Below are positions 50,009-58,536 of a stretch of DNA of 64,000 bases, piece by piece. The notes beneath the pieces are model-generated. The model was not told the DNA's origin. It did not search any database and was given only the letters and a program-made list of their open reading frames with translations. Positions within the stretch are counted from its first letter, which is position 1, and every line of letters begins with the position of its first letter. Source of the stretch: Saccharopolyspora galaxeae (lineage in GTDB: Bacteria > Actinomycetota > Actinomycetes > Mycobacteriales > Pseudonocardiaceae); contig NZ_JADDUE010000008.1 in NCBI RefSeq assembly GCF_016526145.1, forward strand, positions 62,001 through 126,000. Direction: 5' to 3'. Position numbers and translations under genes: made by a program.

Positions 50009-50854
50009 ATGATCAACAGCATGTCGGACACGAAGCGTGCCGCGCTGTTCTCGTTCGGTGCCGAACAGTTCGCCGCGCTGCACGAATGCTGCGAACAGCA
50101 CGGCTACGCCCCCGTCGCCTACGTGCACACCGCGGCGAAGCGGCCCGGGCGGGCGCGGACCGGGAAGGCCGCCGGTGAGCTGCTCGGCTCGATACCCGGC
50201 GACGTCGACTTCCTGGTTCCCGGCAGTGCCGCGGGATTGACCGGCGCGCTGCGCGGCTACCAGGTGGATCTCGCGGTGGTCTACGGGTTCAACTGGCCGC
50301 TTCCAGCAGACCTGTTGCGGAGCCTGCCGGACGGCGCGCTCAACGTGCATCCCTCGTCGTTGCCGCGATACCGCGGTCCCGCGCCGGTGCACTGGGCGCT
50401 GCGCAACGGCGATCCGTCGATCGGCGTGACCGTGCACCGCATGACGGAGCAGCTCGACGCCGGGCCGATTCTGGCTCAACGCAGCGGAATTCCCCTCGAC
50501 GAGGAGATGACGCAAGAACTGCTGTGGGAACGGATCGAACCGGTCGTCCGGGAGCTGCTCGGCACCGCGTTGGGCCGGGTCGCGGCAGGCGATCAGGGCG
50601 AACCGCAGGACGAGTCGGCGGCCACTCGGGCCGGATACCTGGAGCCCGGTTTCTCCGTCGTCGACTGGTCGAACCGCGCCACGGACATCCACAACCAGGT
50701 GCGCACCAACCGGTTCATGCGAAGGAGCCCGACCGCGCGGCTGAACGGGAAGCAGGTGCGGATCCTGCGCACCAGCACGACTCCGGGCGACGGTGTCCGG
50801 GTCGAGTGCGCGGACGGTCCATTGTGGATAACGGATTACGCTTGCGCGGAGTGA
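50009..50854 (+). CDS. Formyltransferase-family protein (Fmt-like)
   Basis: About 281 residues with the formyltetrahydrofolate-binding Rossmann-like domain of methionyl-tRNA and sugar N-formyltransferases. Key motifs: DLAVVYGFNWPLPADLL, the catalytic Asn-His pair in NVHPSSLPRYRGPAPVHWAL, IGVTVHRMTEQLDAGPILAQ with the catalytic Asp, and a shortened C-terminal domain ending LNGKQVRILRTS. It is about 30 residues shorter than standard Fmt and opens AALFSFGAEQFAALHECCEQ, unlike the housekeeping enzyme. It is therefore probably a second formyltransferase of specialised use. The start is 50009 or 50021; neither has a clear ribosome-binding site. It converges on, and overlaps by 19 bp, the STAND gene. 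Confidence 0.78.
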   Translation: MINSMSDTKRAALFSFGAEQFAALHECCEQHGYAPVAYVHTAAKRPGRARTGKAAGELLGSIPGDVDFLVPGSAAGLTGALRGYQVDLAVVYGFNWPLPADLLRSLPDGALNVHPSSLPRYRGPAPVHWALRNGDPSIGVTVHRMTEQLDAGPILAQRSGIPLDEEMTQELLWERIEPVVRELLGTALGRVAAGDQGEPQDESAATRAGYLEPGFSVVDWSNRATDIHNQVRTNRFMRRSPTARLNGKQVRILRTSTTPGDGVRVECADGPLWITDYACAE

Positions 50855-53214
50855 TCGCGGATCCGGCGCGCGACCCGCTCGCGCATCGCCATCGCGACCG
50901 GGTCCTCGAAAGCTCTCAGACAGCCCGCGGCCTCCCGCCAGGAATCCACCGCTCGCTCCGACTCACCACCGGCTGCTGCGGCGGCTGCGAGACCATCGGC
51001 GGCCGCAGCGAGCTGCCAGTCGTCGCCCAGTTCCCGGTGGATCGCTGCTGCGCGCCGGTGGAAGTCGGCGGCGTCGCCGAAACGTCCGAGTTCGCGGTAG
51101 GTCTCACCGATGCCGTGCAGCGCCATCGCTTCCCGGCTGCGGTCGCCCAGCTGTTGCTGCAGGACCAAGGAGCGCTGGTAGGAACTCAGCGCCTCGCCGG
51201 GTGTTCCGAGCGCGCGCTGCACCCGGGCCAGCTCGGTCAGCCAGTACGCCTCCCACATGCGGTTGCCGAATTCCGCGGCGAGGGCGAGGGCTTCCGAGAT
51301 CGCCGAGTGCGCGGCCGGTGCGTCGCCCGATTCGCGCTGCGCCCGGCTGAGCAGGAACAGCGCGTTGCCTTCCCGGGCGCGGTCGCCGCGTTCCCGGTAC
51401 CTGCGCAGGGCGGTGTTCAGCTGCGCCGCGGCGGCCGGGATGTCGCCGAGTTCGCACCGGACCTCCCCGAGGTTGCACGCGGCCAATGCCTGCCAGCCGA
51501 CGTCGCCCGCTTGCCGGGCCAGGTCTGCGCAGCGTTCGAAACGCGCACGGGCCTCGGTCAGTTCCCGGGCGCGCAGCGCCACCAGGCCCAGCGCATTGAT
51601 CGAGGCGAGCAGGCCGGGCCGGTCGTCGATCTCCCGGCGGATCTCCAGCGCCGCCCGGTGGTGCCGCTCGCTGTCGGCGAGTCCGCGGCATTGCAGATGC
51701 GCTTTGCCGAGGCTCTCGTGCAGTTCCGCCGCGCCGTAGCGGTCACCGATCTGCTCGGCCGAGGCCAGCCCGATCCGGGCGGTGGTGAACCAGTCGTCGA
51801 ACTCGTTGCGGTTGGCGTGCGCGTTGCGCAGCAACGCGGCCAGTCGCCAGGAGGTTTCGTGCGCACCGTGCTCGGCCGCGGCCCGCACCACGGCGACCAG
51901 GTTCACCCGTTCCGCCTCGTACCACTCCAGCGCACGGGTGCGGTCGTCGAATGCGATCCGGTCCCCTGGCGCGAACTCCGGGCGCCGGGCGTGCGGGAAG
52001 ATCACGCCCAACGCCGAACCGGCCGAGCGCGCGTACCAGCCGAGCACTCGCCGCACGGCGAGCCACCGGTCCTGCTCGGACTCCTCGTGCAACGCCTGGT
52101 CGGCCGCGTAGGCGCGCAGCAGGTCGTGGAGCTGGTAACGACCCGGCGCACGCTGGTCGATCAAGTGCGCGCCGACCAGCACGTCCAGCAACCGCTTGGC
52201 TTGCGCGGTGGAGCCGTCCAGCAGCGCGGCCGCGGCGTCGGTGCCGAACTCCGGGCCGGGATGCAGCCCAAGCCGCCGGAACAGCCGCGCCGCGTCCTGC
52301 GGCAACGCCCGGTAGGACCAGGCGAAGACGGTGCGCACGGCGTCGGATTCCTCGTCGTCCTCGGCGGTGAGCGCGTCCCAGAGCGAGGATTCGTCGCGCA
52401 GGTCGGAGATCAGGTCCGCCAGGCTCATCAGCGGTCTGCTGGCGGCGCGTTCCGCGGCGATGCGCAACGCCAGCGGCAACCGGGCGCACAGCCGCGCCAA
52501 CTCCAGCAGTTCGGCCTGGTCATCGGCCGCGCGGTAGCTCGCGGTGAGCTCGCGCAGCAGCTCGGCGGACTCGTCCGCGGTGAGCACGCCCAAGTCGACC
52601 CGCCGCGCACCGTTGCGCACCACCAGCCCGGACAGCCGACTGCGGCTGGTCACGATCACCAGGCAATCCGAGGTCCCGGGCAGCAGCGGCCGCACCTGTC
52701 CGACCGAGCCCGCGTTGTCCAGCAGCACCAGCATCCGCTGGTCGGCCAGCCGGGAGCGGTAGAGCGCGGCGCGATCCTCCGGCTCGGCCGGGATCGACCC
52801 GGCCGGTACGCCGAGCGCGCGCAGGAAGCGGTCCAGCACTTCCCCGGCGGTCACCGGCTCGCCCGGGTCGTAGCCGCGCAGGTTCACGTACAGCTGGCCC
52901 TGCGGGAAGCGGTGCCGGACCCGGTGCGCCCAGTGCACCGCCAGCGAAGTCTTGCCGACCCCGGCGGTGCCGGTGATCACGACCACCCCGGGAGGATCGG
53001 CGTCCTCGAGGACCGCGTCGAGATCGCCCGTCTCCGCGACGCGGTTGACGAAACTCCGCACGTTCCCGGGAAGTTGCTGCGGCGTGTCGACCGGCGCGCG
53101 GTCGCCGCCGTGGAAGTGGACGTCGCCGTACACGCGTCCAGCCTGCACGACATCGGCAGCATCTCCGGAGATCTCCGAGCGGTTCCGGGACGTCCGGCCG
53201 TGCGCCTGCTCCAT
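50836..53214 (-). CDS. STAND NTPase: NB-ARC plus TPR, with short N-terminal amyloid-like motif
   Basis: A 792-residue signal-transduction ATPase. Residues 14-35 (EISGDAADVVQAGRVYGDVH) are a short Gln/Gly/Val motif. The NB-ARC follows: P-loop TGTAGVGKTS at 81-90, Walker B LVLLDNAGS near 162-170, sensor TSRSRLSGL and GLPLAL-like RLPLALRIAAE. Winged-helix elements follow at about 310-390 (YQLHDLLRAYA). Residues about 480-790 are tandem TPR repeats (helical pairs such as GEALSSYQRSLVLQQQLGDR). The architecture matches AfsR/NLR-type switches that oligomerise on a signal. No DNA-binding or enzymatic effector domain is fused, so the N-terminal motif is the only candidate output element. Confidence 0.88.
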   Translation of the reverse strand: MEQAHGRTSRNRSEISGDAADVVQAGRVYGDVHFHGGDRAPVDTPQQLPGNVRSFVNRVAETGDLDAVLEDADPPGVVVITGTAGVGKTSLAVHWAHRVRHRFPQGQLYVNLRGYDPGEPVTAGEVLDRFLRALGVPAGSIPAEPEDRAALYRSRLADQRMLVLLDNAGSVGQVRPLLPGTSDCLVIVTSRSRLSGLVVRNGARRVDLGVLTADESAELLRELTASYRAADDQAELLELARLCARLPLALRIAAERAASRPLMSLADLISDLRDESSLWDALTAEDDEESDAVRTVFAWSYRALPQDAARLFRRLGLHPGPEFGTDAAAALLDGSTAQAKRLLDVLVGAHLIDQRAPGRYQLHDLLRAYAADQALHEESEQDRWLAVRRVLGWYARSAGSALGVIFPHARRPEFAPGDRIAFDDRTRALEWYEAERVNLVAVVRAAAEHGAHETSWRLAALLRNAHANRNEFDDWFTTARIGLASAEQIGDRYGAAELHESLGKAHLQCRGLADSERHHRAALEIRREIDDRPGLLASINALGLVALRARELTEARARFERCADLARQAGDVGWQALAACNLGEVRCELGDIPAAAAQLNTALRRYRERGDRAREGNALFLLSRAQRESGDAPAAHSAISEALALAAEFGNRMWEAYWLTELARVQRALGTPGEALSSYQRSLVLQQQLGDRSREAMALHGIGETYRELGRFGDAADFHRRAAAIHRELGDDWQLAAAADGLAAAAAAGGESERAVDSWREAAGCLRAFEDPVAMAMRERVARRIRDHSAQA

Positions 53215-54230: not shown

Positions 54231-54585
54231 GGTCGGCGGCGCGACCCGATCAATGTTCCAACGTTCGGAGTCGATGTCCGGCCCGGTTCGGTGAACCCAC
54301 CACGTCGATCGGTCGCCGCTGTTCGGGTCAACCGCAGGTGATTTCCTGGGCGGCCACCGCTACCGAGTACCCGGTCAGCGAGGAAGTCCAGGCGCTGATC
54401 TCCAGTGCGTTCGGCACGATGCAGGCCCGCAACTCATCTACTTGGACGGGAAGACCGCCTACTTTGCAACCTCCGCCACCGCCGCGAACGCGCTGAGACG
54501 ATTCCACGGGTGCACTGTGCGCCGGCCGGCGGGCCACCGGATCCGGTCGTCCGGTGAACGCGGCTTCTGTTCCACTATGGACGAT

Positions 54586-54619
54586 CCGGGCCGTGAGCGA
54601 ATTTCCGCTCACGGCCCGG
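54586..54619 (-). terminator. Hairpin terminator of the membrane STAND gene
   Basis: A perfect 14-bp stem CCGGGCCGTGAGCG / CGCTCACGGCCCGG with a 6-bp loop, 93 bp after the stop of the minus-strand gene at 54712. No T tract. The surrounding 54231-54711 gap also contains a 375-bp reading frame (54328-54702, minus) that I do not consider a gene. Confidence 0.75.
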
Positions 54620-54711
54620 GTTTCCGCCGCCGGGGTCGCGGCGACCGTCAGCGCGCAGGAGGTTCGTCCGCGCTGGGACCGGTCATGGTGCCGCGACCGC
54701 ACCCCAGGTGC

Positions 54712-57321
54712 TCAGCCAGGGGGCTCGCTGACCACGGCTGCCCCGTTCGGGCGCCATCCTTGCACGACCAACGCGCCGCCTTGGAGCGTTGCGGAGAGCA
54801 TCGGTTGCATCCGCGTGCCGAGTTCGTCCGGGATGCCTCCGAGGTGGGCGTAGGACACCCGGCTCGGATCATCTTGGTGGCGGACGAAGATGTTCACGGC
54901 TCCGGACTCGTCGGACGCCACGATCGGCAGGCCGGTGTAGGCGTCTGGGAGTTCGGGAACGGGATACCACTCCTGCGGCCACTGGTTGGGGCCGAGGTCC
55001 CGGCTCTCGGGCAGCTGCCGCAAGGCGCGATTGCCGTCCAGCGCGAACAGCACCAGCCGGTCGTCGATCATCATCACCGCCGGTGGACTGTGCAGCTGGG
55101 CGTTGCCGAGAGGAGGCTCCCGGAACTTGAAGTCGCCGGAGACCTCCTGCGCCCATGTGCGCATGTAGTGGCTCCTGTCCAGCACGAACACGCGCAAGAA
55201 GCCCGAATCGTCCCGGTGGACCTTCGGGTCCTCGTCGGTCAGCGTTCCGTCCAGCATCTTGCGTTTCCAGCCCTCGTTCTGCGCCAGTCGCCAGACGCTC
55301 CCGCCGGAGTCCCTGGTGATCACCACGAGGTTCCCGCTGCGGTCCTGGGCCGCCGCCGGCGTGCCGGACATGCCGGTCGCGATCTCTTTCCAGTCGTCTG
55401 CCTGCGACGGAACGCCCGGCTCGACGTTCGGGTTGTACAGCAGCCTCCCGGCCGTGTCGGTCACGAACCCGACCAGCCTTCCGTTGCGGTCCGGCACGAG
55501 CACCGGACGGGTTTCGGCCATAGCGCTCACACCGAGATCGCCGTCCGGTTCCGGTGCCGTTGCAGCGGAAGATTGCACGTATCGGTGCACCGTGCCCGGG
55601 CCGCTCCCAAGCGTGACGAGGCTGCCGTCCCCGGCCTGAGCCGTCGAACGGGCCGGGAGATCGCAGTCGGGGCGGTCGCACTCGGCCGACGATGCGGGCG
55701 GTGCCTGCGGTGGCGGCTCCGCGGCGGCTGGAGGTTCCGGCGTGGGTGCCGGGTTGGGCGTCGTGGCCGGTGGCGGCCCGGGAATCTGCGCAGGCGGCAT
55801 CTGTCGCACCGGCGGCGGTTCGGCCGGTGGCCCGTCGCGGCCGACGTCCAGCTGCGCGGCGAACGCGACTCCCGCGGACAGCACCACGGCAGCCGGAACG
55901 CCCACCAACACCGTCCGGCGCACCCGGCGGCCGCGCGACGCCTTGCGCCCCGCGGATTCCCGGGCCAGCGCGGAGCTCGCCGGGATCTGCACTCCGGGCT
56001 GGGACCGATCCGCCGCACGGCGGTGGAAATGGCCCTGCGCGCGCAGGTACGGATCGGATTCCGGCGACACCGCCGCGGCTCCCGATCCCGATTTCCCCGC
56101 CGATTTCGGCTGGAACGAACCCAGGAAGGCCCGGTGGTATTCGGGCAGCTCGGCGCCGACCCGCTTGCGCAGGTAGTCACCGACGACATCGTGCACCTGA
56201 ACGGCGGGTGCGTCGCCGACCCAGCACCGCTGCACCAAGGCCAGCTCGTCGAGCCGCGCGAGCAGATCCTCGACCGCGTCCGCGGTCATGCCCGCGACAC
56301 GACCCCAGTACGTCCGCAACGTCTCGGGCGGGATGAACGCGTCCCCGGGGAAGATCGCGAGGTCGAAGCACCGCTGCCGGTGCTGCTCGCCGAGCAGGGA
56401 CAGGTTCAGCTCGATCATGGCCGAGGCCGTGTCGCAGCGCTGCGTCACGGCCGTGCGGTCCACCTCCTGCGCACCGCGGGAGAGCCGATCGGCCACTTTT
56501 CGCGCCGCATCGGAAAGCGAACGCCCGCCGTTGACGTACTTGTGCACGGCACGATTGGCCAGCGCCAGCATCAACGGCCACCCGTGCGTGCGGGCCAGCA
56601 GCGGATCCACCTGATCCGGATGGTGCGTCGACCACCCCGCGCACAACACGGCCTGAGCTTGGTCCGGCTGCATCGCCCCGGCAGTCACCGGCGCGGCGCC
56701 CTGCGCCAGCAACTCCGGGAACCTGGTGGTGACCAGCTTGCGGCAGTTCGTGCCCGCGGCCGCGAACGGTTCCAGCTGCGAACGCCGCCACACGTCGTCG
56801 ATCACCAGCAGGCAGCGCTTGTCCGCCACGAGGTTGCCGAGATGTTCACCGGCCTTGTCCGGGCCGGTGAACGACGGGCGGCTTCCGGACAACCGCTCGG
56901 ACAGCTCGTTGAGCTTGGTCGCCAGGTCCGGCCCGGCGGCGTCGTACCCGATCGTCGTCCACAGCACGCCGTCGGGGAACGACTCGGCCACCCGCGCGTC
57001 GCGGCACGCCATTGTGGCCAGCGTGGTCTTGCCGAACCCGCTGTCCCCGGTGACGCCGGTCGGCAGCTCGGTTCCGGCGGCACCGCGCAATGCCTCGATC
57101 AGTTCGTCGAGCAGCTCCGGGCGAGGCACCGCGGAATGCGCGGGAATCGGCAACGAGTCTCCGGTGCTCGGGCGAACCGACGACGATCCGCCCGTGTTGA
57201 TCGTGAGACCACCGGAAATACTGCCGCCGACTTGCATCGCCAGACCGACGTGGTCGCCGACCTGGTTCGACGTCGACGCCACTTCCGCTGCGGCGTCGTC
57301 GCCTTCCGACCTTTCCGACAA
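54712..57321 (-). CDS. Transmembrane STAND NTPase with C-terminal beta-propeller-like ectodomain
   Basis: An 869-residue, unusual multidomain protein. Residues 19-43 are a Gln/Gly-rich motif (NQVGDHVGLAMQVGGSISGG). The NB-ARC domain spans about 65-400: P-loop TGDSGFGKTT at 91-100, Walker B LLVIDDVW at 171-178, sensor LVTTRFPELL and GWPLMLALANRA. A basic stretch (RKASRGRRVRRT) precedes one membrane helix at 471-490, so the NTPase should be inside. A Pro-rich linker (about 498-544) and two cysteines follow. Residues about 560-869 are repeating beta-rich blades (SLVTLGSGPGTVHRYVQSS, RPVLVPDRNGRLVGFVTDT, AAAQDRSGNLVVITRDSGGS, and others), like a PLL-type lectin propeller, placed outside. The upstream 57322-58110 gap holds its promoter and no other clear gene. 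Confidence 0.82.
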   Translation of the reverse strand: MSERSEGDDAAAEVASTSNQVGDHVGLAMQVGGSISGGLTINTGGSSSVRPSTGDSLPIPAHSAVPRPELLDELIEALRGAAGTELPTGVTGDSGFGKTTLATMACRDARVAESFPDGVLWTTIGYDAAGPDLATKLNELSERLSGSRPSFTGPDKAGEHLGNLVADKRCLLVIDDVWRRSQLEPFAAAGTNCRKLVTTRFPELLAQGAAPVTAGAMQPDQAQAVLCAGWSTHHPDQVDPLLARTHGWPLMLALANRAVHKYVNGGRSLSDAARKVADRLSRGAQEVDRTAVTQRCDTASAMIELNLSLLGEQHRQRCFDLAIFPGDAFIPPETLRTYWGRVAGMTADAVEDLLARLDELALVQRCWVGDAPAVQVHDVVGDYLRKRVGAELPEYHRAFLGSFQPKSAGKSGSGAAAVSPESDPYLRAQGHFHRRAADRSQPGVQIPASSALARESAGRKASRGRRVRRTVLVGVPAAVVLSAGVAFAAQLDVGRDGPPAEPPPVRQMPPAQIPGPPPATTPNPAPTPEPPAAAEPPPQAPPASSAECDRPDCDLPARSTAQAGDGSLVTLGSGPGTVHRYVQSSAATAPEPDGDLGVSAMAETRPVLVPDRNGRLVGFVTDTAGRLLYNPNVEPGVPSQADDWKEIATGMSGTPAAAQDRSGNLVVITRDSGGSVWRLAQNEGWKRKMLDGTLTDEDPKVHRDDSGFLRVFVLDRSHYMRTWAQEVSGDFKFREPPLGNAQLHSPPAVMMIDDRLVLFALDGNRALRQLPESRDLGPNQWPQEWYPVPELPDAYTGLPIVASDESGAVNIFVRHQDDPSRVSYAHLGGIPDELGTRMQPMLSATLQGGALVVQGWRPNGAAVVSEPPG

Positions 57322-57993
57322 GGATCTACAGTTCCTCTCCGCGGACCGGACCGGTCCACACGTCCGACTAGTTCGAGTTCCGGCCGCACAACGCCGAAGA
57401 ACCGAAGCGCCGCCCGGACATCGCGGGGACGATGCCCGATGCAGGCAGAACGGGCGGACATGGGCTACCGCTGCGGAACGAGAAGCTCCGGCAGCGCGCG
57501 AATTCCGCCCGAAAGCACCCGGGCGACGGTTCCATCAGCGAGCACGCAACGGGCACGCCGTTGCGGTTCGCCCGAGGCGGACCGAGCTCGCACCCCTGAC
57601 TCGGCCCGGTGCTGTGCGCTCCGGGAGGCGCGCGAACACGCCTCCTGCGATAAGTTGATCAGTTGTCGCTCGCTACCACTTCTCCCCGGCACAACGTCCG
57701 CACACGCTTCTTCGGAATATGCAGCAATCGCCGATACCGGCGATTAATCCAGTCCTGATGCGGGACAGTCAACTTACTTGAACTTGAATTCGCTGCGGGA
57801 TCGAGCAGGATTGCGACGAGCGGGCATACCGATCGACGAGCGGTCGCTTCCGAACGACGAATGACGAGCGCAAGTTCGTCCCGGCCGAACTCGGCCGGGC
57901 GCACGAACAATAATCGTTGCTTACTGAACCAGCACTGCCGCAAACAAATTGATTCCGAAATCATTGCCCTGGTCCGCGACGGCCGATGAATCG

Positions 57994-58035
57994 GCCACAG
58001 TGGACGCTCCGATCGCGGAGTGTCCACTGTGGCCG
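57994..58035 (-). terminator. Long palindrome, probable terminator of the FMN-binding protein gene
   Basis: A 19-bp stem (arms 57994-58012 and 58017-58035, one mismatch) with a 4-bp loop; the arms begin GGCCACAGTGGAC and end GTCCACTGTGGCC. It starts 75 bp after the stop of the minus-strand gene at 58111. It could alternatively be an operator, but no gene starts next to it. Confidence 0.65.
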
Positions 58036-58110
58036 GTATCGGCGCGCGTTCCGGGCCGGTTCGCGAGCGGCGGAGCCTGCGGTCGTGCGGGACCGCCACC
58101 GGACTTCCTG

Positions 58111-58536
58111 CTAGAACGACCCCATCTCGGCCGACAGCCAATGCTCCGGGCGCATGTAGATGGTCACGTGCTCACCGAGCTCCGTGCGCTCGTACTCCAC
58201 GAAGTTCGCGGCCGCCTCCGGCGGCAGGTACCGCTCGGCCATGCGCCGGGAGGCTTCCTCGCTCCCCGCCTCGATCCGGGTGACCGGACCTTCCACCGAG
58301 ACGTAGCGCACGGTCGGCTCGATCCGCTGCGCCAGCAGGCTGAACCGGCCCGCGGCGCGGATCGCTTCGGCCTTGCGCGACTGCGCCCCGGTGCTGATCC
58401 AAAGCTCCTCGCCGGGCGAGTAGTGGTACCAGATCGGGACCGTCATCGGCGCGCGACCGTTCGTCCACGCCACCGCGAGCGATCCCGTGTGCGGTTCGGC
58501 GAGGAATTGCTCTCGTTCCTGTGCAGACAGTGCCAT
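58111..58536 (-). CDS. Pyridoxamine 5'-phosphate oxidase-like FMN/F420-binding protein
   Basis: A 141-residue split-barrel flavin-binding protein: SAQEREQFLAEPHTGSLAVA opens the fold, then MTVPIWYHYSPGEELWISTG and SRKAEAIRAAGRFSLLAQ follow. RYVSVEGPVTRIE and a C-terminal VTIYMRPEHWLSAEM match the small actinobacterial FDOR/PNPOx-like proteins that use FMN or F420 to reduce small molecules. I chose the ATG at 58536 because the sequence after it matches the family start; the 58560 reading only adds eight residues. It precedes no obvious partner and is followed by a large palindrome. Confidence 0.82.
   Translation of the reverse strand: MALSAQEREQFLAEPHTGSLAVAWTNGRAPMTVPIWYHYSPGEELWISTGAQSRKAEAIRAAGRFSLLAQRIEPTVRYVSVEGPVTRIEAGSEEASRRMAERYLPPEAAANFVEYERTELGEHVTIYMRPEHWLSAEMGSF

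Follow-up and report, generated by a model that had tools for sequence, protein, structure and literature searches.

The gene and its product

The stretch of DNA analysed here, called the window, covers 64,000 nucleotides of Saccharopolyspora galaxeae (contig NZ_JADDUE010000008.1, positions 62,001 to 126,000), whose genome of 6.4 Mb belongs to a small GTDB genus of six genomes. It contains an open reading frame (ORF) of 869 codons on the minus strand, running from a TTG start at 57321 down to 54712, with GAGAGGAA about 10 bases upstream of the start; the product combines an NB-ARC switch, a predicted membrane helix and a C-terminal propeller of the PLL type (Table 1). The same bases also hold a plus-strand ORF of 1101 codons (54442-57747), and we accepted the minus frame over it because the homology and the gene-like guanine-plus-cytosine (GC) content at third codon positions belong to the minus frame. 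Codon-position GC in that frame is 0.72/0.54/0.86, the last value falling within the range of five measured neighbouring genes (0.84-0.89). A preliminary description of this DNA, made from the letters alone, had the coordinates right but gave no strand; the N-terminal motif and the caspase-linked form of the architecture, both described below, also escaped it.

Table 1. Position and basis of the features discussed in the text (window coordinates).
Feature	Position	Strand	Basis
869-residue NB-ARC / transmembrane / PLL-propeller protein	54712..57321	-	ORF, homology, codon-position GC
RHIM/BASS-like motif, residues 19-43, divergent, one extra residue	57193..57267	-	homology to the motif of homologue L091
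NB-ARC + HD1 + winged-helix domain, residues 65-404	56110..57129	-	Pfam, phmmer, alignment, profile
P-loop GDSGFGKTT, residues 92-100	57022..57048	-	G92 and GFGKTT invariant in 4/4 aligned NB-ARC proteins
His377-Asp378, HD pair of the winged helix	56188..56193	-	invariant in 4/4 aligned proteins
Junction, residues 405-457; NB-ARC-WD40 homology stops at about 441	55951..56109	-	alignment
Basic juxtamembrane stretch, residues 458-469	55915..55950	-	charge count
Single predicted membrane helix, residues 470-489	55855..55914	-	hydropathy, charge
Pro-rich stalk, residues 490-547	55681..55854	-	24 of the 70 residues past the helix are Pro
Cys548 + Cys553, only cysteines past the helix	55663..55680	-	pair common to four caspase-linked propellers
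PLL-type propeller, seven repeats by spacing, residues 560-869	54715..55644	-	homology, blade model
NB-ARC-TPR neighbour protein with N-terminal VVQAG motif	50836..53214	-	Pfam and motif alignment; at most a possible member of the same system

An APAF1-type switch in the cytoplasmic half

Pfam places an NB-ARC domain at residues 71-227 (E 8e-14), the phmmer alignment to APAF1 spans residues 65-404 (E 1e-12), and a profile built from the protein and three homologues returns APAF1 first (E 5e-25), followed by a plant NLR and AfsR. All four aligned NB-ARC proteins keep the P-loop, the Walker B motif (L171-W178), the TTR and the winged-helix HD pair without change, and we take His377-Asp378 to be the HD of an MHD-type motif. 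The protein thus displays the hallmarks of a STAND/NB-ARC (AP-ATPase) switch, namely P-loop, Walker B, sensor-type TTR and a winged helix with an HD motif. The full NB-ARC switch with P-loop and Walker B that the preliminary description had read from the residues is borne out, with both motifs at the places it gave, by Pfam, by the phmmer match to APAF1 and by the alignment, and an APAF1-type NB-ARC-winged-helix switch is confirmed at the level of sequence, its nucleotide-dependent oligomerisation being putative. Set against the tripartite plan of NLR proteins, the switch is present, the C-terminal propeller is predicted to lie outside, and the N-terminal motif is assigned by homology to L091 alone.

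A PLL-type propeller at the C terminus

Sequence comparison also confirmed that the C-terminal part of about 310 residues is homologous to PLL/PHL lectin propellers, with sugar binding as a putative function. The single sequence matches the Photorhabdus lectins PLL, PLL2, PLL3 and PHL (E 3e-10), and a profile of eight propellers searched against the PDB gives a best E of 3e-59; all eight matches at E ≤0.01 come from Photorhabdus, five being named PLL, PLL2, PLL3 or PHL and three labelled by genome segment only. The blade-like region of about 300 residues that the preliminary description had proposed has thereby gained a family. A blade model was made of 45 units taken from seven other proteins, with cut positions of our own choosing on the protein under study. 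In the latter it found six of seven blades: four score higher than any of 200 shuffles (up to 7.9 bits), two fall short of this (5.5 and 5.6 bits), and the seventh is placed by spacing alone. On the cytoplasmic half the model scores at most 0.3 bits. A WD40 assignment of the C-terminal part was considered as well and rejected: L091, a homologue that does carry WD40 repeats, obtains -0.3 bits or less from the blade model.

All five genomes of the genus among the 41 searched contain the propeller, and two of the 36 others give a weak match; in these two, one protein (L088) has a signal-like segment and the other (L087) an enzyme-like N terminus without one. In a class-wide scan, which scored 15 first-look candidates per genome and may have missed some, it was recovered from the own genome and, as seven weaker matches, from 6 of 148 genomes. 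By reading, five of the seven have either a signal-like stretch at the N terminus or a part that resembles an enzyme, and two (338 residues) have neither. The PLL-like propellers of other actinobacteria (L087:1935-4232 and L088:2724-4355, both minus strand, L132-L137 and L139) sit mostly on proteins that look exported or enzyme-like, again by reading. Further propeller proteins of the genus consist of a short N terminus, a helix and the propeller, and Pfam recognises nothing in L002 and L010. Among 72,556 plasmid records the propeller had no match at E 0.01, and one viral-contig scan yielded none that was confirmed.

These relatives raise the possibility of an envelope self-monitor or anchor, whose propeller would be bound constitutively to the capsule or to a wall polymer of the cell itself and either tether the NB-ARC domain to the membrane or report envelope damage, with no invader to be recognised. 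The actinobacterial relatives fit such a role, as they mostly look exported and wall- or sugar-acting, and so do the several helix-propeller proteins of the genus that have no obvious signalling domain, L002 and L010 included. On the other side, all amino-acid differences between strains fall in the outer half (see below), a weak hint of a changing ligand or of weak constraint, and we regard the self-monitor as rather unlikely.

Membrane helix, stalk and topology

The topology is derived from hydropathy and flanking charge. The 19-residue Kyte-Doolittle average peaks at 2.27 at residue 471, the sole stretch above 1.6 in the protein; the same value is attained in 1.5% of 5000 shuffled versions, so composition alone is not decisive. 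Eight Lys or Arg residues precede the helix within 20 residues and two follow it. Hydropathy and charge pattern agree with the one membrane helix that the preliminary description had placed at 471-490 behind a run of Arg/Lys, and the Pro-rich stalk it had noted is likewise present. The pattern recurs across the genus: 15 of 18 propeller rows could be extracted (L016, L020 and L028 were left out), and 14 of these proteins (12 of 13 distinct) have a hydrophobic segment, L011 being the one without. All 14 (12 distinct) carry 5-8 Lys/Arg in the 20 residues before the segment vs 0-3 after it, and all 12 distinct helix-bearing proteins fit an orientation with the N terminus inside and the C terminus outside (N-in/C-out). 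Concomitantly, a Cys pair stands before the propeller in all five distinct NB-ARC- or caspase-linked proteins and is absent from four membrane-only rows (three distinct). A propeller outside the cell, in N-in/C-out orientation, is therefore very probable; the positive-inside pattern, the Cys pair and the mostly exported look of the actinobacterial PLL-like proteins lend support, short of proof, to the outward-facing sensor of the preliminary description.

A probable exchange of the sensor

Residues 1-400 were searched against 41 genomes, the own genome and its relatives, with matches at E 1e-10 in 16 of them. Leaving the own genome aside, the search ranks L091, from the same genus and 44% identical by tblastn, L089 and L090 highest. 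In all three the NB-ARC region is followed by WD40 repeats, detected by Pfam for L091 (scanned on its partial copy L005) and by sequence reading for L089 and L090. Homology with L091 and L089 extends to about residue 441, at the start of a helical arm, and with L090 to about residue 414; beyond residue 441 or so the 869-residue protein continues with the basic stretch, the membrane helix, the Pro-rich stalk and a propeller that is not WD40. Other genomes gave 26 NB-ARC matches, of which 23 could be taken with longer flanks; an ORF was obtained from 19 of these. In the separate extraction that supplied the propeller rows of the genus, five NB-ARC rows (L022, L023, L025, L026 and L030) had no tblastn hit and were left out. 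In none of the 19 ORFs does a hydrophobic segment of at least 1.7 occur more than about 370 residues past the start of the NB-ARC match. L112 has a borderline segment (1.65), segments lie inside or before the NB-ARC region in L095, L096, L105 and L108, and L089 has two at its N terminus.

The membrane-propeller part is in turn found on a different cytoplasmic domain. Four proteins from three sister species of Saccharopolyspora (L006, L007, L009 and L014, two of them in genome G002) join a Peptidase_C14 domain to the helix, the stalk, the Cys pair and the propeller. Their Peptidase_C14 matches (E 4e-6 to 1e-7) are above the Pfam cut-off and the GHG and DCC motifs are present; the L006 protein (genome G005) is letter for letter the L031 protein of Saccharopolyspora sp. 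NFXS83. Over the helix-to-propeller part they are 35-38% identical to the protein studied here, and in a tree of 17 propellers the four caspase-linked sequences form a clade with it and its second-strain copy (support 100/99), in which its own branch is long and the program warns on long branches. The preliminary description had named orthologues without the segment as a refutation of its reading. Taken literally, the closest NB-ARC homologue L091 is such a case, as it ends in WD40; the caspase-like sister proteins have kept the module. Since they have kept it, we read the WD40-bearing closest homologue as a sign of domain swap: with high confidence, the architecture is as described and a cytosolic WD40 sensor was swapped for the helix-stalk-propeller module. 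The comparison suggests that this module may serve as a plug-in cell-surface alarm. The caspase-like proteins could themselves be surface receptors that act directly on a protease.

Separately, the own genome encodes two proteins that read as NACHT-like, with five (L140:3612-5774, plus strand) and four (L141:4452-6428, minus strand) hydrophobic segments after the NTPase; both have the N-terminal motif and neither has a large outer domain. Because these two carry segments after the NTPase, membrane-bound STAND proteins as such are not new here.

N-terminal motif and candidate effectors

The stretch from residue 19 to 43 can be aligned with the motif at the N terminus of L091 (z 5.3, P 5e-4) and, less clearly, with the "VVQAG-x-V-x-GG" motif of other NB-ARC proteins; the motif alignment has nine rows besides it. 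The motif family resembles the amyloid motifs of the BASS/RHIM type that have been reported in bacterial NLRs (PMC7889193, PMC8086366, PMC12261475, PMC7885112; these and the other articles cited here are drawn on from partial texts), the present copy being divergent. Scanning the own genome with the ten-row motif alignment gave 13 matches at E ≤1, the three best of which lie at members of the alignment and so match by construction. The others are, by reading, further NB-ARC proteins, the two NACHT-like proteins and two motifs placed C-terminally before the stop; the two weakest matches (L126 and L127) look like chance.

The two C-terminal motifs define candidate effectors. The first is a Bell-like candidate of 123 residues (L128:5791-6162, plus strand; motif E 0.005), for which Pfam gives FliT at E 4e-4, below the cut-off; the second, of 272 residues and cyclase-like by reading (L129:5693-6511, minus strand; motif E 0.01), has no Pfam match. 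Two leave-one-out profiles score the 123-residue C terminus at 8.7 and 14.9 bits and the 272-residue C terminus at 20.0 and 19.7 bits, and the L091 motif, when left out too, at 14.6 bits. A model of the present motif together with that of L091 gives the two C termini 5.7 and -2.0 bits, less than its best shuffle (8.9). The last turn of the motif resembles that of the 123-residue protein, and a pairing of the two was rejected at P 0.34, though L091 reaches z 5.6.

A proposed cell-surface receptor and what weighs on it

NLR and STAND proteins are textbook intracellular sensors. We lean towards reading the present protein as a single-pass, N-in/C-out, NLR-like receptor of the cell surface that would signal inward by NB-ARC oligomerisation, and find it reasonably probable that binding outside is signalled inward. 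An APAF1-type NB-ARC protein would have received, just past its winged helix, a ready-made surface sensor consisting of helix, stalk, Cys pair and propeller. The propeller may bind a repetitive glycan or other polymer outside, be it the cell's own wall or capsule or the surface of a phage, a rival or a host, and multivalent binding would cluster the receptors. The NB-ARC domains crowded in this way would exchange nucleotide and oligomerise, and the gathered RHIM/BASS-like N termini might recruit or template an effector encoded elsewhere, for which the 123-residue and the 272-residue cyclase-like proteins are candidates. The action of that effector would end in growth arrest or death. Amyloid-type transfer is a tentative element, less likely than not. 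The same caution applies to the proposal in its complete form, a true cell-surface NLR in which glycan recognition outside would act across the membrane to assemble the NB-ARC domains and to seed a death effector by RHIM-type amyloid, with a cassette that plugs into either an NB-ARC switch or a caspase-like protease; we offer it as a possibility. If true, bacteria would have an equivalent of both death receptors and immune receptors of the cell surface, made of apoptosome parts.

Several results weigh against the receptor reading. The own-genome motif scan found no effector-like motif bearer beside the gene, and the C-terminal motifs of both candidates are weak at the E values given. In the leave-one-out profiles the receptor's own motif scores -0.4 and 2.5 bits, below the best of 1000 shuffles of the N terminus (7.3 and 11.6). 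Compared pairwise with the two candidates it does not rise above shuffles (P 0.34 and 0.63), and several other receptors' motifs do pair with them above shuffles and fit better. The caspase-like domain of L009, for its part, has no PDB relative by phmmer. At the membrane, signal peptidase might recognise the AFA-AQ with which the helix ends; cleavage after AFA (486-488) would part the propeller from the NB-ARC domain, or shedding would itself be the signal. In the four caspase-linked relatives AVA stands there instead, with T-P or V-Q behind it, and the four membrane-only rows (three distinct) show no AxA at that place. Internal helices this far from the N terminus usually stay uncut, and we judge a cleaved or shed sensor to be highly improbable.

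The remaining adverse points concern the age and upkeep of the gene. The full order of NB-ARC, helix and propeller was found in two strains of one species only, in 2 of 6 genus genomes. The ratio of nonsynonymous to synonymous rates (dN/dS) is 0.84 for the whole gene (3 synonymous and 7 other changes), by which constraint is not proved, and about 1.0 in the propeller, compared with 0.18 in the neighbouring NB-ARC-TPR gene. All seven amino-acid differences between the two strains fall in residues 498-859 and none in residues 1-460, a placing that equal per-site rates would produce with probability 0.005. One synonymous change lies in the part of the protein predicted inside the cell and two in the part predicted outside, and the contrast between the two parts is not significant when set against them (Fisher, about 0.3), so that the comparison shows neither constraint nor diversification of the propeller.

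Such numbers would also suit a young fusion with little or no function, drifting since an NB-ARC-WD40 fragment and a membrane-propeller gene recombined in one species. The restriction to that species, the dN/dS values, the divergent N-terminal motif and the long tree branch all point that way. They are opposed by the 869-codon frame, intact in both strains, by the conserved NB-ARC motifs and normal third-position GC, by residues 1-460 with no amino-acid change, and by a propeller already distant from its caspase-linked kin. That same distance indicates that the module is old, which the fusion need not be, and a functionless fusion seems to us unlikely. The inward-signalling receptor remains the reading that we prefer.

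Genomic surroundings

The NB-ARC-TPR neighbour resembles AfsR without its DNA-binding part and adjoins a DUF6879 gene. Two ORFs next to the propeller gene were considered as adjacent effectors and rejected: 57659-58141 has a third-position GC of 0.63 and no family match, and 54328-54702 a third-position GC of 0.72. None of the 13 ORFs of at least 30 codons in the 789-bp upstream gap has the membrane helix of an EACC1-like 5' gene (hydropathy ≥1.6), and none of seven ORFs in the downstream gap has a hydrophobic segment of at least 1.6. PADLOC returned a single weak match, to the linker region (E 0.014), and there was no PHROG match; together with the plasmid and viral-contig results for the propeller, this gives no sign of a phage or plasmid origin. 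A related-loci search with the whole protein found none; with the propeller alignment it found one, L031. Only one of ten window ORFs compared, a PPOX-type oxidoreductase, recurs in four sister-species stretches, which had been chosen around that gene. Collinearity with the second strain (L130) ends just upstream of the PPOX-type gene. The stretch fetched from L130 lacks the CoA-transferase-like and TPP-enzyme-like genes and nearly all of the FGGY-kinase-like gene (labels by reading), and the block from about 58625 on looks strain-variable.

Comparison with known systems

The PLL lectins of Photorhabdus and their binding sites have been described (PMC6943638). The present propeller is homologous to the PLL/PHL seven-bladed lectins in sequence and shows, by spacing, seven repeats of about 46 residues; unlike these free lectins, it is a membrane-anchored C-terminal domain with more degenerate blades. 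With BASS amyloid signalosomes, which pair a Bell protein with an NLR (PMC7889193, PMC8086366, PMC12261475), the present case shares an NB-ARC protein with a putative RHIM-like motif at the N terminus, assigned by homology to L091, and a small protein of the same genome with a C-terminal motif. It differs from what the texts at hand describe in that the candidate effector is not adjacent, the motif is divergent and the sensor is predicted to be outside; the motif-bearing neighbour of the gene is another NB-ARC protein.

Sensors outside the membrane have also been attached to conflict proteins before. Caspases with periplasmic-binding-protein domains and GAP1-N2 GTPases with cadherins follow a plan of cytoplasmic enzyme, helix and outer domain (PMC7159879), and a cyanobacterial metacaspase carries CHASE2 (PMC3501461). 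Among conflict proteins diversified by retroelements, some are predicted to have periplasmic C-type-lectin domains, and in one of these a NACHT domain is likewise placed in the periplasm (PMC10907252); lectin-fold domains on STAND proteins are reported in PMC8195603, whose text, as far as it was available, does not mention a topology like the present one. The EACC1 and GAP1-N2 membrane systems (PMC7159879) resemble the present layout in joining a cytoplasmic conflict enzyme and a helix to an extracellular domain; their core, in the portion of that article drawn on, is a caspase or GTPase, whereas here it is an NB-ARC switch and no helix-bearing gap ORF lies beside the gene. In searches of the open-access literature we recognised no description of an NB-ARC/STAND receptor with a membrane helix and an outer PLL-type propeller. 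Since the plan of a conflict or death enzyme in the cytoplasm, a helix and an outer domain has been described before, the union of NB-ARC with a PLL propeller predicted outside is a new variation on it.

Within the genus, the caspase-like transmembrane PLL proteins (L006/L031, L007, L009 and L014) share helix, stalk, Cys pair and propeller clade with the present protein and differ in the cytoplasmic part, which is caspase-like in them and an NB-ARC switch here. If its switch is inside and its lectin-type propeller outside, as predicted, the present protein and these sisters would together illustrate the coupling of one surface sensor to two cores of death machinery, and transmembrane activation of an NB-ARC switch would be directly testable in an actinobacterium. 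The NB-ARC-WD40 proteins of actinobacteria, L091, L089 and L090 being the closest, have the NB-ARC domain and winged helix in common with it, L091 and L089 also the start of the helical arm, and L091 the N-terminal motif; they end in WD40, whereas the present protein ends in a helix, a stalk and a PLL-type propeller predicted to lie outside. One genus thereby offers a natural comparison between a cytosolic WD40 and a predicted extracellular PLL sensor on homologous switches.

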